45,819 bases of DNA from a virus: positions 1-45,819 of IMG/VR virus record IMGVR_UViG_3300005578_000202, one strand, 5' to 3'. Below, piece after piece: positions 38,116 to 45,523 of this stretch. The stretch's first letter is position 1; each line of letters begins with the position of its first letter. Both the position numbers and the translations under genes were made by a program. A model generated the notes under the pieces. That model made no database searches. It was not told the origin of the DNA and saw only the letters and a program-made list of their open reading frames with translations.

Positions 38116-38463
38116 ATGCGACACGTATTGCTTGGAATCGGCGTCTGCCTATTGGCGGCCTGTGCCAATTACTCCGACGTCCAGGTAAGGACGCCGATGC
38201 ACGTAACGGAGTCTGCGATGCAACCGCAGGCCGTCGCGGAGTGCGTTGCGTCGAAATGGATAGATACCAATGCCAGTACCCATATCGTTCCGAATGGCGA
38301 TACGCGCGTGGTTGTGGTGCCTACCGGCGGAGGTACAACCACTTTGGTGATGATGACGCTCACCGCATCGCCCACGGCTTCCGGAAGCCATATCGAGATG
38401 CGGACAACGCCGACACTCGGCACATTCAATGAGCAGTGGGATCAGGCTCGGTCCTGCTTGTAG
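38116..38463 (+). CDS. Lipoprotein inserted in the tail operon
   Basis: A 115-residue protein with AAGGA upstream. Signal peptide with lipobox 'GVCLLAAC' (Cys16), then 'AVAECVASKWIDTNASTHIV' and a beta-rich Thr/Ser part with a C-terminal Cys. It sits between K-like and J-like genes and ends in its own terminator, the place of superinfection-exclusion or lysogenic-conversion genes in several phages. Family not recognised. Confidence 0.65.
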   Translation: MRHVLLGIGVCLLAACANYSDVQVRTPMHVTESAMQPQAVAECVASKWIDTNASTHIVPNGDTRVVVVPTGGGTTTLVMMTLTASPTASGSHIEMRTTPTLGTFNEQWDQARSCL

Positions 38464-38485
38464 TCCAGCCCAATGCTCGCAACCA

Positions 38486-38512
38486 AAGCCCGCCACTCGG
38501 CGGGCTTTTTTT
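38486..38512 (+). terminator. Intrinsic terminator after the lipoprotein gene
   Basis: A 9-bp stem (AAGCCCGCC / GGCGGGCTT), ACTC loop and seven T residues, ending 11 bp before the J-like start. Confidence 0.9.
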
Positions 38513-38522
38513 ATGGACCGCT

Positions 38523-41348
38523 ATGACCAACGAATGCACCGTTGTTGCTCAGCCGAACGTGATGAACGGCGAAGAACGAGTTTTTGCCCAGTTCCAGGCC
38601 GGGCAGTCGCTTACCGAAATGCTCGGTGAGTTCGCCAGCCATGCCTGCGAGGTGCAGATAGGGGGCTATCCGGTGCCTCGCACGATGTGGCCGAAGGTGA
38701 AGCCGCGCGCTGGGCAGTATGTGCATGTCGTGGTTTTTCCACAGGGCGGGAATGGTGGAAAGATTCTGCGCATCGCTGCGATAGTCGCGTTGACGGTCTT
38801 CGCTGGCCCGCTGGGCGCCGTAGTCGGCCAGGCGCTTGGCGTGGGCACCGCGATTGGTACGGGCATCGTGATGGCTGTCGGCACGCTGGCAATCAACGCG
38901 CTGATCCCACCGCCCACGCCAAAGAGCCTTGGCGGTGGTGGAGGTGACGCGTTCAACCAACTGGCGACGATCACCGGCACGAGTAACCAGGCCGCGCCGT
39001 ACAACGTGATTCCCTGCGTGGTCGGCTCCTACCGGATGTTCCCGCCGCACGCAGCCCTGCCATACACCGAGATCAGCGGCAACGATCAGTATCTGCGGAT
39101 GCTGCTGGACCTAGGCTACGGTGACCTGGATATCTCGGATATCCAAATCGGCTCGACGCCGATCGAGAGCTATGACGACGTGGAGTGGCAGATCAGCACC
39201 ACGCCCACGCTGTTCTCGCAGGACATTTTCGAGGCCGCGGTGGGCACCGCGCTGAACAACAGCGGCGACAACGACACCCGCACCACGCAGACCGGCACTA
39301 CGGAAATCTCGCTCGACATGGTGTTCAGTGGCGGCTTCTACGGCGTCGACAACAAGGGCCGCACCGTCAGCGGCTCGACCAGTTTCACCGTGCAGTACCG
39401 GCCGGTAGGGTCGGGCACCTGGTCCTACGCCAACGGCGCCACGGGGCTGAGCCTCACCGGCGGCCTGACGAATGGTGGGTCGACCTTCAACATTTCCAGT
39501 TCGGCCAAGCAGACGCTGCGCACGGGCATCCGCTGGACGGTGCCGATCGGCCAATACGACGTGAAGGTGACGCGAGGTACGACGGCTTTTGGCAGCATCC
39601 AGTTCGCGCAGAGTGCTGCCGCGTGGTCGGTAATCCGCTCGATCAACCCGCAGCTGCCCAGCACCACCGGCACGCTGAAATTGGCCGTTCGCATCAAGGC
39701 CACCGACCAGCTGCAGGGCGTGGTGCAGAACCTGTCCGTGCTGGCCTCGCAGAAAATCCCGCGCTGGGACAAGGGTGCGCAGGCCTGGTTGCCCGACGTG
39801 GCCACCAACAACCCGGCGTGGATCTATGCCTGGCTGATGACGCGGTGCCCGGCCGTCATGCGCAGGCTGCCGGACTCGCGCCTTGACCTGGACGGGATCG
39901 CCGACTGGGCGAGCGAGTGCGACACCAAGGGATTGCAGATCGGGTTCGTGATGGACAGCTCCCGCGCGTTCGGCGACGTGGTCCGCGACGTGCTGGCCGC
40001 CGGCCGGGCCAGCTTCGGCCTGCGCAACGGCCGGTACAGCGGCGTGCGTGACCTGCCGCAGACGGTGCCAGTCCAGATGTTCACGCCGGTGAATAGCTAC
40101 GGCTTCAGCTATGCCCGCGTGTTCAGCAATCCGCCGCACGCGCTGAGGGTGAAGTTCACCAACCCTGAGGCGAGCTGGCAACAGGACGTCCGCGTCGTCT
40201 ATTGGGACGGATACAACGCCACCAACGCCACGCGGTTCGAGGAACTGGACCTGCGTATGGTCACGGACCCGGACGCCGCGTGGCGCCTCGGGCGCTACCA
40301 CCTGGCCGTGATCTGGAAGCGACCGACCACCTACACCTTCAGCGCCGACATCGAGCACATGGTCTGCGAGCGCGGCGACCTGGTGCACGTCGCGCACGAC
40401 ATCATCGCCTGGGGCTTGGCCTGGGGCCGGGTGAAGGCGCTGGGCGGCAGCACCATCACGCTGGATGGGCCGGTGACCCTGGAGTCGGGCAAGAGCTACC
40501 AGGTGCGGATCCGCGGCGCCAACGGCACCGAGTCCACGGCGAACGTGACGAACGGGGCCGGCACCTGGATTTCGCTCAACCTCGGCAGCACGCCGGCGTG
40601 CGCGCCGGGCGACCTGTTCGTGCTGGGTGAGGTCAACCGCACGGTGGCCGAGCTGATCGTGAAGTCGGTCCTGCCGTCGAACGACCTATCGGCACAGCTG
40701 GTGTGCGTCGACGCCGCGCCGGACGTGCTGACGGCCGATGCCGGCACGCCGCCGCCCTTCGTCAGCGACATCACGGGCGTGTCCTGGTGTGCGCCGCCGG
40801 ACCCGCCGGTGGTGACCATCCGGGCCGGCGACAGCGCCGCGGACGACGCTGGCGTGGTCCAGGCCAGCCCGGGCGTGTCCGGGGCGCCGGCGCCTGGCAT
40901 CTACCGCGTGCCGATCAGCGCCGGCGGCTGCGTGGTCACCGATTCGCTGCTGCCCGACATGCGCCGGGCTGGCGAGGTGGCCGTAGGCGATTACCTGCAG
41001 ATGGCTGACCAGGTGACGCTGGCCGACCGCACCGACCGGGTCACCTACAGCGAACCGAAGCTGCAGCCCTGCGTCGAGATCGTCACCGTCTCGGGCGCGG
41101 TGCTGCGCTGTTCGACCTCCGCGCCAATCCCCACGCCCTCCGGCGTGGTGCTGGCGCCGCACCTGGCCGGCCGAAGGGTGGCGGTCAAGGACGGCGATGG
41201 CGTGCGCTGGGAGGCCGTGGCGCGCCTCCGCGGCATCGGCATGCAGGTCGTGCAGCACATCACCGTCAACGACGGCTGTTTCTGGGCTGGTGCTGAGCCA
41301 GGCCGCTACATCCTCCACCACAACAAGCGCTCTGCCGAGGTCGATTAA
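38523..41348 (+). CDS. Tail-tip host-specificity protein (J-like) with C-terminal Hint domain
   Basis: ATG at 38523 gives 941 residues. The front carries a lambda I-like region (membrane-active segment 'ALTVFAGPLGAVVGQALGVG' near 85-130). 'GSYRMFPPHAALPYTEISGN' and 'DLGYGDLDISDIQIGSTPIE' mark the J core, 'RVVYWDGYNATNATRFEELD' the central part. Residues 803-941 are a Hint domain: 'CVVTDSLLPDM' block A, 'LRCSTSAPIPTPSG' block B, 'GRYILHHNK' at the end. The usual block-B His is Ala. The J core binds the host receptor; the Hint domain may cleave its own ends. Confidence 0.85.
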   Translation: MTNECTVVAQPNVMNGEERVFAQFQAGQSLTEMLGEFASHACEVQIGGYPVPRTMWPKVKPRAGQYVHVVVFPQGGNGGKILRIAAIVALTVFAGPLGAVVGQALGVGTAIGTGIVMAVGTLAINALIPPPTPKSLGGGGGDAFNQLATITGTSNQAAPYNVIPCVVGSYRMFPPHAALPYTEISGNDQYLRMLLDLGYGDLDISDIQIGSTPIESYDDVEWQISTTPTLFSQDIFEAAVGTALNNSGDNDTRTTQTGTTEISLDMVFSGGFYGVDNKGRTVSGSTSFTVQYRPVGSGTWSYANGATGLSLTGGLTNGGSTFNISSSAKQTLRTGIRWTVPIGQYDVKVTRGTTAFGSIQFAQSAAAWSVIRSINPQLPSTTGTLKLAVRIKATDQLQGVVQNLSVLASQKIPRWDKGAQAWLPDVATNNPAWIYAWLMTRCPAVMRRLPDSRLDLDGIADWASECDTKGLQIGFVMDSSRAFGDVVRDVLAAGRASFGLRNGRYSGVRDLPQTVPVQMFTPVNSYGFSYARVFSNPPHALRVKFTNPEASWQQDVRVVYWDGYNATNATRFEELDLRMVTDPDAAWRLGRYHLAVIWKRPTTYTFSADIEHMVCERGDLVHVAHDIIAWGLAWGRVKALGGSTITLDGPVTLESGKSYQVRIRGANGTESTANVTNGAGTWISLNLGSTPACAPGDLFVLGEVNRTVAELIVKSVLPSNDLSAQLVCVDAAPDVLTADAGTPPPFVSDITGVSWCAPPDPPVVTIRAGDSAADDAGVVQASPGVSGAPAPGIYRVPISAGGCVVTDSLLPDMRRAGEVAVGDYLQMADQVTLADRTDRVTYSEPKLQPCVEIVTVSGAVLRCSTSAPIPTPSGVVLAPHLAGRRVAVKDGDGVRWEAVARLRGIGMQVVQHITVNDGCFWAGAEPGRYILHHNKRSAEVD

Positions 41349-43726
41349 TGGCCGCTTCCGCCCCCGTCCAATATGAAATCCGCTGGCGCGAGACGGGCAC
41401 GCTGCAGTGGAGCAAGGTCGCCACGGCGTCGGTGACTGCCGAGCTGGTCGTCACCGGCCTCGATCGCTCGAAGAACTACGACTTCGAGGTGCGCGCCGTG
41501 TCGGCGTGCGGTGCGAAATCGGTGTGGGTGCCGAGCGGGTACAGCGTGCCCAACTCGTCGGCGCCGCCGGCGGTGGCCACGCTGGCCGCCCAGTCGGTTT
41601 CTGACGGCGTGCTGCTGACCTGGACCACATCCACCACACCGCCCGCTGGCGTGGAGTACGAGGTGTGGCGCAGCGACACGATGGCCGGTGTATATGCGCT
41701 GCTCAACCGTGCCCGTACGCTGAGCTACACCGACGGCATCACGGACGGCGTGGTGCGCTGGTACAAGGTCCGTGCGATCAATTTCGCCGGCGTGGCCGGC
41801 GCCTATTCGCCGATCGTCAGCGGCCGCGGCAAGACCTCGGCCGACGGTGCCGACGTCACCGGTCAGCAGACCGGCATCAACGTCGGCAACCCGTACTTCC
41901 AAAAGGATCTGTCCAGTTGGACGCCTGACCATACGCCCGGCTGGTACTGGGAGACGGGCACGGGCAACAAGCCGGACCCGAGTTTTAATACCTACGTCGT
42001 GCACGCCGGCAGCACGGCGCTGGCGGGGTCGACTGCCACCGACAACCTGCGCAACAGCTACCACATCAACGTGCGACCTGGTCAGCAGGTGGTGGCGACG
42101 TGCTGCGTGAAGGCTATCGGCGCACCCAATGCCGGCGCGCTGGCGTACGCGCGGATCTCGTGGCGCGACATCAACAACGCGGAGATCTCGACTTCCGCGC
42201 CGGATGGCAGCACGGCCTATCCACGTTGTGGCGCCGCCGGCACCGGCACCTATACGCAATGCGTGACCAAGGTGGTCGCTCAGGCGCCGACGAACGCGGT
42301 CTACGCGGTGTGTGAGCTGGTAGTCGTGTCTCATACCGGCGGCTATTTCACCTTCTGCGGCGCCACCATCAATATCCAGCCGAGCAGCCTGGACGAAGTG
42401 CCGGACAGCTCGGTCTATACCCGCAGTATTCAGTCGTCTGTCGCGGAAGTGGTCGATAACGCCGATTTCGAAGCCAGTACATCGACCACTGCGCCGGTGC
42501 CGGGATGGAGCGGTGGCAGCGCGAACCTGTCGTATGCCGGCGGAGGTGCGGCCTACGCGGGTAACCAAAGCCTGGGTGTGACCACCACCGCCATGTTCGG
42601 AGCAGCGGTCTCCAATCGGATTTACACCTGCAGCCCCAATGATGTCTTCTTGATCTCCGGTGCGATGGTGAATTGGATCAACACCGGGCCGGCCTATATC
42701 CAGCTGGTCTTCTTCGACAAGACGGGCGCCGTTGCAGGAACGGGAGGCCCGTCGACCACTTCGACATCGTGGAACACCTACTCGCAGCAGGTCACGGCTC
42801 CGGCGAACTCCGTCAACTTCAAGATCTATCTCCAGAACAATGGCGCTGCAGGCTCGCAGGCAGCCTACGACGGGATCCGCCTGTCGCGCCTGCGCAGTCT
42901 CGCCACCGAGGTGAAAGGCACGCTGAGCACGCAGCGCAACCTGCCCACTGTTTCGTTCGGCAACTACGGTAGCGGCTGGATCGGCTTGTCGTTTGGCTAC
43001 AACACCACGCCTACCGTGGCCACCATCACCGCCACGGCGGCAACGCTGCAATTCGGCAATGACCAGATCTCCTACAACGCCTCCGCCGTCGGAGTCACCG
43101 GGTCTGCTGGCGCCACGGTCAAGTTCTACCTGTACTACGACGATCCGAACCTTGTGGGTGGCAGCCAGACCCTACAGGCCACCACCAGCAACATCACTGC
43201 GATGGCGAACAACAACCGGCTGCTGCTGGGCACCGCAACGGTAGTGTTTCCCACCAGCGGCACCGGTGGCGGTTCGGGCGGAGGCGCATGCGTCACGGTC
43301 GATTCCTGGCTGCCCGGCCACGGCGCTGCCGGCGCCATTGCCGTGGACGACCTGCTGGAGCTGGTGGAGGATGCCGCGAGCTTCCGACGCCGCGCTGGCA
43401 GGGTGACCTACGCCGTGCGGAAACTGGCGCCGTGCGTTCGCATCATCACCGAGAGCGGCATTTCCCTGGACTGCTCCACCAGCGCGCCGATTCTCTGCAG
43501 CGACGAATCGCTGGTGCTGGCGCCGGACCTAGTCGACACGAGGCACCCGGAGCGCAACCGCGTCATTCCGGTGAGCGACTTTGGCGACCACCGGCACGAG
43601 CGCGTCGTGGCCGTCGAGGACATCGGCGAGCGCGAGGTGATGCACATCACCTGCGAGAACAGCGTCTTCCTGGCCGGCCGCACGCGCGGCCGCTACATCG
43701 GCCACCACAACCTCAAACCGACCTGA
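41348..43726 (+). CDS. Fibronectin-type tail protein with C-terminal Hint domain
   Basis: ATG overlaps the J-like stop (TAATG); 792 residues. Residues 1-165 are two fibronectin type III domains ('YEIRWRETGTLQWSKVATAS', 'YDFEVRAVSACGAKSVW'), which in lambda belong to the end of J itself. Residues 180-340 and 370-520 resemble carbohydrate-binding beta-sandwiches ('NPYFQKDLSSWTPDHTPGWY', 'DNADFEASTSTTAPVPGWSG'). After a Gly/Ser linker, residues 648-792 are a second Hint domain (Cys648, 'CSTSAPILCS', 'GRYIGHHNLKPT'). Likely tail-fibre or tip spike that contacts the cell surface. Confidence 0.8.
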   Translation: MAASAPVQYEIRWRETGTLQWSKVATASVTAELVVTGLDRSKNYDFEVRAVSACGAKSVWVPSGYSVPNSSAPPAVATLAAQSVSDGVLLTWTTSTTPPAGVEYEVWRSDTMAGVYALLNRARTLSYTDGITDGVVRWYKVRAINFAGVAGAYSPIVSGRGKTSADGADVTGQQTGINVGNPYFQKDLSSWTPDHTPGWYWETGTGNKPDPSFNTYVVHAGSTALAGSTATDNLRNSYHINVRPGQQVVATCCVKAIGAPNAGALAYARISWRDINNAEISTSAPDGSTAYPRCGAAGTGTYTQCVTKVVAQAPTNAVYAVCELVVVSHTGGYFTFCGATINIQPSSLDEVPDSSVYTRSIQSSVAEVVDNADFEASTSTTAPVPGWSGGSANLSYAGGGAAYAGNQSLGVTTTAMFGAAVSNRIYTCSPNDVFLISGAMVNWINTGPAYIQLVFFDKTGAVAGTGGPSTTSTSWNTYSQQVTAPANSVNFKIYLQNNGAAGSQAAYDGIRLSRLRSLATEVKGTLSTQRNLPTVSFGNYGSGWIGLSFGYNTTPTVATITATAATLQFGNDQISYNASAVGVTGSAGATVKFYLYYDDPNLVGGSQTLQATTSNITAMANNNRLLLGTATVVFPTSGTGGGSGGGACVTVDSWLPGHGAAGAIAVDDLLELVEDAASFRRRAGRVTYAVRKLAPCVRIITESGISLDCSTSAPILCSDESLVLAPDLVDTRHPERNRVIPVSDFGDHRHERVVAVEDIGEREVMHITCENSVFLAGRTRGRYIGHHNLKPT

Positions 43727-43735
43727 GAGGGCAGC

Positions 43736-44224
43736 ATGAGCTACACCAAGGTTTCCCCGCAGCCGCAGCCACGCGACCCCGACAACAGCGACATCGGCGC
43801 GCCGGGCCTCTATCCCAGCGAAGTCGCGGTGCAGCTGGATACCGGCGAATACGTGGCTGTCTACGTCGAGCGGACGTGGCAGGAAAACAACGCCGGCTTG
43901 GCTTTCTACACATCGGCGCGACTCGTCAACGCCGACGGCAGCACCAAGCTGTGCGTGGCCGGCAAAGAAATCGTGATCGAGGTGCGCACCGCCAGCGTGC
44001 AGAAGGACATCCAGGACTATGGCGCCGACGCGCTCACGAAAGAGCATGTCCTCGCCGTGCTGGGAGAGCAGACCACGCAGGTTCCGGTGCCCGACGGCCA
44101 GCCAGGCGAAACGATGTCGATGATGCGCTGGGACGCCAACTTCCTCGCCAATATCAGCATTCGGCAGGCGATCGCCGCGGTGGCTTGCGCTGGCGAGGTG
44201 ACGACGCTGGCCGACCTCCTGTAG
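43736..44224 (+). CDS. Tail-associated protein, unknown
   Basis: A 162-residue protein with GAGAGGG upstream. 'GLYPSEVAVQLDTGEYVAVY' and 'FYTSARLVNADGSTKLCV' suggest beta strands; the C-terminal half is helical ('SIRQAIAAVACAGEVTTLAD'). It directly follows the tail-fibre gene. May be a fibre chaperone or tip subunit. Confidence 0.6.
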   Translation: MSYTKVSPQPQPRDPDNSDIGAPGLYPSEVAVQLDTGEYVAVYVERTWQENNAGLAFYTSARLVNADGSTKLCVAGKEIVIEVRTASVQKDIQDYGADALTKEHVLAVLGEQTTQVPVPDGQPGETMSMMRWDANFLANISIRQAIAAVACAGEVTTLADLL

Positions 44225-44587: not shown

Positions 44588-45523
44588 ATTTGCTATTCCG
44601 CCCAGGTCAAAGCCGACTACATGGCCTTCGTGCGCATCTTCGGCGCGGTCATGGATATCCATGAGTTCGTGAAGCTCTTCGTGGAGAAGCGCGCGGATGG
44701 CGGGTGGACGAAGCTACCCAAGGCGATGCGCGAGTCCTTCCGCAAGCCGGCGAGCGAGGAGGGGTTCGAGCTGGCCAAGATCGTGGCCGAGGGCGATCGG
44801 GAGCTGGAGGCGAAGCTGGTGGCCGAGCTGGACACGCAGCGCGAGCGCCTGGCCAAGGCCGAAGCGGTGCTCGCCGGGCCGAAGCCGACCAAGAAGGCCG
44901 CGGAGGACCAGCGGATCGCCGGCAACAAGGTGAAGGCGGCCCAGCGAAATCTGGACGACCTACGGCGCGCCGAGCCGGACCCCAAGGATTCCCGAATCTA
45001 CCCGGGAAGCTATGCCCCGGTGATGATCGCCGACGCCAAGACCGGCCAGCGCCGCGTTGTGCCCATGCGCTATCAGTGCCGCCTGCCTGGCTGGACCGAG
45101 GCCGTGGAGCGGAAGTACCCGGGCACCTACAACGCGCGCCGGGACAACCTGGAGAGCGCATGGTCCAAGCTCTTCGGCTACCACCACGGCATCATGATCG
45201 TCACGACGTTCTACGAGAACGTGGACCGCGACGGGAAGAACGTGGTGCTGCAGTTCACTCCGAAGCCGCCGCAGGACATGCTGGTGGCCTGCCTGTGGTC
45301 GCACACCACAGACCGCGACGGCGACGAGCTATGGTCCTTCGCGGCCACTACCGACGAGCCGCCGCCAGAGGTCCTGGCCGCAGGCCATGACCGCTGCATC
45401 ATCCCCATCAAGCCGGAGCACCTAGATGCCTGGCTCAACCCCGACCCGCGCGACCTGCAGGCGCTCTACGCCATCCTTGATGACCGGCCGCGCCCGTACT
45501 ACGAGCACCGGCTGGCGGCATGA
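44588..45523 (+). CDS. SRAP-family protein (HMCES/YedK-like), ATT start
   Basis: Start set at ATT (44588-44590), because the next codon is the Cys that must follow Met: 'CYSAQVKADYMAFVRIFGAV'. GGAGG lies 9 nt upstream. The first ATG (44621) would remove the catalytic Cys2. 311 residues. 'PGTYNARRDNLESAW', 'MIVTTFYENV' (Glu) and 'AAGHDRCIIPIKPEH' (His) complete the SRAP active site, which bonds to abasic sites in single-stranded DNA. A central coiled insert ('LAKAEAVLAGPKPTKKAAED') marks the long phage form. It could protect phage DNA from abasic-site damage or base-excision attack. Confidence 0.85.
   Translation: MCYSAQVKADYMAFVRIFGAVMDIHEFVKLFVEKRADGGWTKLPKAMRESFRKPASEEGFELAKIVAEGDRELEAKLVAELDTQRERLAKAEAVLAGPKPTKKAAEDQRIAGNKVKAAQRNLDDLRRAEPDPKDSRIYPGSYAPVMIADAKTGQRRVVPMRYQCRLPGWTEAVERKYPGTYNARRDNLESAWSKLFGYHHGIMIVTTFYENVDRDGKNVVLQFTPKPPQDMLVACLWSHTTDRDGDELWSFAATTDEPPPEVLAAGHDRCIIPIKPEHLDAWLNPDPRDLQALYAILDDRPRPYYEHRLAA

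Follow-up and report, generated by a model that had tools for sequence, protein, structure and literature searches.

We identified a coherent family of Hint domains that end phage tail proteins and were previously unlabelled in the sequence libraries searched. Two members cap the chains of a lambda-type tail-tip protein J that is split in two and encoded in the window (i.e. the whole stretch of DNA analysed here, 45.8 kb, positions 1–45,819 of the IMG/VR virus record IMGVR_UViG_3300005578_000202). The literature searched contained no description of such a family: a search for Hint or bacterial intein-like (BIL) domains in phage tails returned only terminase and replication-gene inteins, most subscription journals lying outside its scope. 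Searches against Pfam, PHROG, NCBIfam and PDB sequence profiles, including those of known BIL and Hint domains, left the phage domain unmatched, and it was recognised by fold comparison only. The domain sits at the tail tip, where host recognition happens, and every member carries a lysine in the short tail behind its terminal Asn, which suggests self-processing, with phage tail proteins being cut or covalently re-linked without an outside enzyme.

A lambda-like set of head and tail genes is present in the window (terminase, portal, protease, tape measure and minor tail proteins), and downstream of the minor tail protein genes, in the place of J, lies a J-family match with a fibronectin-III (fn3) domain, as in a phage central tail fibre J. 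All features described below are on the plus strand. The initial annotation had seen two consecutive tail proteins here; judged by their profile matches, these are instead the N- and C-terminal pieces of one lambda-like J, broken inside the fn3 domain. The first chain (J-N, 38436..41348) matches phrog_31 (central tail fiber J) over profile positions 98–890 (E 5.9e-108), as well as the Pfam families FNIII-A_GpJ and Phage-tail_3, and the second (J-C, 41348..43726) continues over positions 902–1270 of the same profile (E 7.7e-20). J-C begins within the fn3 domain, the Pfam fn3 profile being matched there only from position 31 of 84 (positions 31–75, at 41369..41518), while the first part of the domain sits in J-N. 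The consecutive phrog_31 segments, together with the partial fn3, point to one J made as two chains. The two open reading frames share one base in a TAATG stop/start overlap (41346..41350), for which relatives have TGATG or ATGA. J-N starts with GTG at 38436 or, alternatively, with ATG at 38523; the residue numbers first given for its Hint domain (Cys803 and Asn934) hold from the ATG and become Cys832 and Asn963 from the upstream GTG, which is used here.

All close J homologues are split at the same fn3 loop, with or without a Hint, whereas more distant homologues are single chains with an intact fn3. Ten relatives are split at this site without a Hint there, so the split is independent of Hint 1, which we rejected as its cause; the two-chain state would need no Hint, as the fn3 halves could complement each other. 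The second open reading frame is in the −1 frame relative to the first in the window, L009 and L013, and a −1 frameshift fusing the J halves was considered, but no slippery site was seen and the 1–4 base overlap fits stop/start coupling. A fused J query gave no match in the phage collection. As these split J proteins show, the coding of a tail-tip fn3 domain can be divided between two chains. A J of two chains with two Hints also occurs in a Rhodanobacter glycinis prophage (L013) and in L063 and L107; the two copies in a row that had been singled out in the window are real but not unique to it. As a separate observation, J-C starts with MxK(S/T) in most loci with a Hint-less J-N (L061–L071, L081, L114) and in none of the five with a Hint on J-N (window, L009, L013, L063, L107), a pattern that could reflect clade structure or an alternative lysine.

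Hint 1 comprises 132 residues (40929..41324), from Cys832 (codon 40929–40931) to Asn963 (codon 41322–41324), and reads C-VVT-DS-L-LP ... CSTSAPI ... GRYILHHN. Its block-B Ser is encoded at 41112–41114, and the position of the block-B His is taken by Ala (41121–41123). It is directly preceded by the linker GIYRVPISAGG (40896..40928), which lies downstream of the first fn3 part and is conserved in J-N chains whether or not they bear a Hint, and is followed by the seven-residue tail KRSAEVD (41325..41345) and the stop codon; Lys964 (41325–41327) is the proposed acceptor. Hint 2 comprises 141 residues (Cys648 to Asn788, 43289..43711), reads C-VTV-DS-W-LP ... CSTSAPI ... GRYIGHHN and follows the Gly-rich linker PTSGTGGGSGGGA (43250..43288); its four-residue tail LKPT (43712..43723) contains Lys790 (43715–43717). 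Both linkers are flexible, ending in Gly-Gly or Gly-Ala, and both domains are strictly C-terminal, with these tails in place of a real C-extein. The motifs from which the two domains had first been paired (block A, CSTSAPI, VTY...KL-x-PCV and GRYI-x-HHN) were all found where the initial annotation had placed them, and the homology that it proposed is borne out by a local alignment score of 242 (maximum 54 among 1000 shuffles) and a sequence match of Hint 1 against Hint 2 at E 1.5e-26.

AlphaFold (AF2) was run on the Hint domains with 16 window and related sequences, and yielded all-beta models for Hint 1 (pLDDT 90.8, pTM 0.85) and Hint 2 (pLDDT 89.7, pTM 0.85). For both models, Foldseek against the PDB retrieved Tetrahymena BIL2 (6y75/6tmm), DnaB mini-inteins (TM up to 0.80 for Hint 1), the Hedgehog structure 1at0 (TM 0.75 for Hint 1 and 0.69 for Hint 2) and the Clostridium (Cth) BIL 2lwy (0.71 and 0.64 respectively), BIL2 (6y75) being the best match of Hint 1. 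As modelled, both domains are Hint folds, and the structure prediction that had been suggested as a check on the intein-like assignment upholds it in both copies.

Relatives were collected from J proteins, VrlC baseplate proteins and fibres, 42 at first and then 73 (non-redundant). They derive from annotated phages (Stenotrophomonas phage DLP6, Xanthomonas phages PhiXhv-12, LucasX and XacN1, and Erwinia phage Ep032), from IMG/VR contigs and from prophages (that of R. glycinis and others), and cap J-N, J-C, unsplit J, VrlC-type baseplate proteins and fibres. The collection scan used narrower alignments, A1 being too diverse for it. The domain is rare in genomes, being found in five of 399 sampled Lysobacterales and in four of the 399 genomes of the phylum sample, one of these four being marginal (E 7e-4). 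One proteobacterial genome (G869) gave six family matches, five of them substantial, on contigs C25, C35, C54, C58, C97 and C111, apparently from several related prophages. All members lie at the extreme C-terminus, with the stop codon 3–23 residues past the Asn; a Gly-rich linker precedes the domain in 63/73, and the residue before Cys1 is Gly in 54/73. The 42 aligned members (< 90% identity between members, median 29%) share without exception Cys1, Ala14, the block-B Ser and the next Pro, and likewise the closing His-Asn. This extends the His-Asn end of the window pair to the whole alignment; a survey of J homologues for HHN ends had been proposed. The two losses noted in the initial annotation hold throughout as well: the block-B His position is Ala in 26 and Thr in 16 members and His in none, and the +1 residue, Lys and Leu in the window, is never Cys among the 73 relatives (Ser in two, Thr in two). 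With both the block-B His and a +1 Cys absent, splicing of the ordinary kind would not be expected. L175 confirms the register of the missing His, as its Hint in tandem upstream of the terminal one reads VCSTTHKF at the place where the family has CSTTAPI. Internal Hints of this canonical type, in L019 and L175, keep the block-B His and continue with HN-Lys. That of L019 spans residues 1741–1881 of a 2082-amino-acid VrlC and is followed by a C-terminal family member, so that both loci have tandem Hints in one baseplate protein.

In the tree, the J-N Hints form one clade (support 0.97), apart from the J-C Hints. VrlC has undergone two splits at separate sites, and in both cases the N-half bears a Hint: the break in DLP6 maps to the Rhizobium phage I1_18 protein between its residues 1312 and 1396, and that in L020, L022 and L024 near residues 1165–1203. 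The Hints of these two VrlC groups branch in separate regions of the tree, which indicates that the module has moved between tail proteins.

With the Hedgehog/intein fold and an N-terminal Cys nucleophile (42/42), the phage domain is of the Hint/BIL kind; it is not an intein, nor provably an A-type BIL. It shares fold, Cys1 and His-Asn with inteins (mini-inteins, Ssp or Npu DnaB) but has no Cys at +1, no His in the block-B T-x-x-H motif and no C-extein to join, and it is never an in-frame insertion between two joined exteins, a stop always coming within 3–23 residues. A-type BIL domains have a conserved His-Asn end and do not require Cys, Ser or Thr at +1 (PMC7765530); the likeness to them first proposed is apparent in the Hint fold, the His-Asn end and the variable +1 residue, whereas the Ala or Thr in place of the block-B His, the strict C-terminal place and the lysine in every tail set the phage domains apart. 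BIL2, from the Tetrahymena BUBL1 polyubiquitin locus (6y75, 6tmm), is the best or near-best fold match of both copies and likewise has C1 and a terminal Asn. It lies between two ubiquitin-like domains and has a catalytic His69, whereas the phage Hints lack the block-B His and cap the C-terminus of their chains, followed only by a short tail with its lysine. In the BIL2 reaction, the ubiquitin-like domain on the N-side is reported to become attached through its C-terminus to a lysine side chain by an isopeptide bond (PMC8616854); the phage equivalent is our proposal. The Hedgehog Hog domain (1at0) is also a C-terminal Hint, whose N-terminal part is passed to a nucleophile and not spliced, as we propose here, with lysine in place of cholesterol; the phage Hints differ in keeping the terminal Asn and in having no sterol-recognition region (only 3–23 residues follow). 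In FrpC clip-and-link, autocatalytic release leaves a C-terminus linked to lysine by an Asp-Lys isopeptide (PMC5472700), an analogy of outcome only, as that chemistry depends on Asp-Pro and calcium and involves no Hint fold.

Lysine was present in the tail after the Asn in 73/73 relatives, and an acceptor candidate near the C-side of the Hint, as in BIL2, is thus available in every tail. In the first set, all 42 tails contained Lys against 8.1 expected from the Lys content of each protein, and no other residue was comparably enriched. As a guard against retrieval bias, scans were made with queries ending before His-Asn, so that the tail was unable to influence retrieval, and every new terminal Hint with His-Asn also had a tail Lys. 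An ordinary C-terminal Lys bias was rejected, as only 12%, 17% and 32% of 590 other genes on the same contigs have Lys in the last 4, 6 and 12 residues respectively. The position of the Lys relative to the Asn varies from +1 to +14; in the VrlC group the penultimate residue is Lys in 26/26, with the neighbouring positions variable. The best matched control comes from J-N chains broken at the same split site, where Lys occurs in the last 12 residues of 5/5 chains with a Hint and 1/10 without (Fisher p 0.002). The 73 tails share kinship, which makes raw probabilities optimistic, yet the pattern recurs in the J-N, J-C, VrlC and fibre groups. Two other origins of the lysine were rejected. Derivation from the Shine-Dalgarno sequence of the next gene does not fit the cases inspected, as the GAGG of the window lies downstream of the Lys codon and the purine stretch of the KP-tail group comes after the stop. 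Conserved VrlC sequence does not account for it either, the YDK/YEK motif being absent from five unsplit VrlC proteins.

By analogy with BIL2, we tentatively favour, as a real possibility, a C-terminal autoprocessing Hint family in which the tail lysine attacks a Gly~Cys thioester to form an isopeptide and Asn cyclisation frees the domain. Hint domains of known systems form a thioester at Cys1 and are able to cyclise the Asn. Here, Cys1 would attack the preceding, usually Gly, peptide bond to give a thioester between tail protein and Hint. The tail lysine, brought near the active site because the two ends of a Hint lie together, would then attack this thioester in place of the +1 nucleophile of inteins, and His-Asn would cyclise the Asn to release the Hint. 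In cis, the tail protein would end up with a lysine-linked C-terminal peptide; in trans, it would be bonded to an adjacent tail-tip chain through the lysine tail of that chain. The lysine may thus offer a specific route to the cross-linking of the tail tip that had been suggested in general terms. With both ends invariant and almost nothing behind the C-end, an inert domain is hard to explain. Several points weigh against the lysine as acceptor: Hint-less J-N chains evidently manage without such chemistry, a cis reaction would leave only a short peptide attached, of doubtful benefit, the Lys might instead serve as a general base or make a structural contact, and the block-B His, which normally drives the N-S shift, is absent. 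Some inteins function without this His (PMC7664689), and bulky −1 residues can compensate for its loss (PMC6333167), a compensation that is inapplicable to the phage family with its predominant Gly at −1.

Alternatively, and as a somewhat unlikely possibility, the Hint could be a self-cleaving C-terminal domain without ligation, a disposable assembly module whose Cys1 thioester is hydrolysed and/or whose Asn cyclises. Self-cleaved C-terminal chaperone domains are known from phage spikes and fibres, and the strict C-terminal position and the flexible Gly linker would suit this role. The block-B His, missing in all members, would require a substitute, and the lysine might merely help catalysis in that capacity. 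The products of BIL domains are, moreover, mainly cleaved ones (PMC7664689, PMC7765530). Cleavage by itself leaves the invariant His-Asn unexplained when so few residues come after it, and a lysine that wanders from +1 to +14 is easier to reconcile with a flexible acceptor than with a general base in a fixed place. It is quite unlikely, in our view, that the Hints act in trans, with the lysine tail of one Hint-bearing chain taking over the Gly thioester of a second (between J-N and J-C, or among the chains of the J trimer) and so locking the tail tip covalently. Two Hint-bearing genes often stand side by side (window, L013, L063, L107 and L014–L016), and BIL2 is able to attach the ubiquitin-like domain that partners it to other proteins (PMC8616854), but the J pair of L009 and several J proteins have a single Hint, so that a partner Hint is not obligatory.

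We consider it very unlikely that the Hint is an inactive structural domain, i.e. a stable all-beta cap for folding or receptor contact. The loss of the block-B His and of the +1 nucleophile, and the existence of a stand-alone paralogue without Cys1 or His-Asn (L004 26600–27019), would agree with this, but Cys1, His and Asn are invariant in 42 members at a median identity of 29%, while most of the surface varies. Descent from a cis-splicing intein in J and VrlC, the host gene having later been split at the insertion point, would account for the Hints where J is broken and, independently, at the two positions where VrlC is. This reading is already disfavoured and scarcely credible: J is split at the same place in the ten Hint-less relatives, many Hints cap unsplit J proteins and fibres, and the lysine tail and the invariant catalytic residues argue against decay.

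To return to the lysine as acceptor, its universal presence turns the vague label 'intein-like' into the specific prediction of a Gly-Lys isopeptide. If this bond forms, phages mature or weld their tail proteins by self-catalysed conjugation, and the domain is a compact lysine-ligation tool; if it does not, the family still represents a new catalytic layout without the block-B His. A broader proposition, which we regard as unlikely, is that phage tails carry a widespread ATP-independent conjugation module, in which the Hint activates a Gly C-terminus as a thioester and hands it on to a lysine. Chains of the tail tip or baseplate (J-N and J-C, the halves of VrlC, fibres) would thereby become joined by covalent isopeptide bonds, in a viral parallel to the reaction by which BIL2 dispenses ubiquitin.

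A number of other observations concern Hint-capped genes and their neighbours. The stand-alone Hint-like protein of PhiXhv-12 (XYR92700, the L004 26600–27019 product) is encoded by a gene whose start overlaps the stop of a Hint-capped fibre gene by one base, and looks like a non-catalytic paralogue or partner. In the same phage, a Hint-capped gene (L004 14503–16046) has a four-base overlap with a 2OG-Fe(II) oxygenase gene, a possible partner modification. The DLP6 record (L007, about 1–1637) holds a further, unannotated Hint-capped open reading frame that ends SHNVTKQIP. The large-genome contigs L014, L015 and L016 encode two consecutive Hint-capped fibre-like paralogues, one of which has a Cys-rich tail containing PPNCC. 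In the window, a small protein starting MSYTK (43736–44224; no family match) is encoded directly 3′ of J-C, and small proteins related to it are encoded behind Hint-capped J in L011, L023 and possibly L042/L043. Adjoining the tail genes, the window also encodes a protein with an SRAP (SOS response-associated peptidase) domain and an N-terminal extension (44621–45523).
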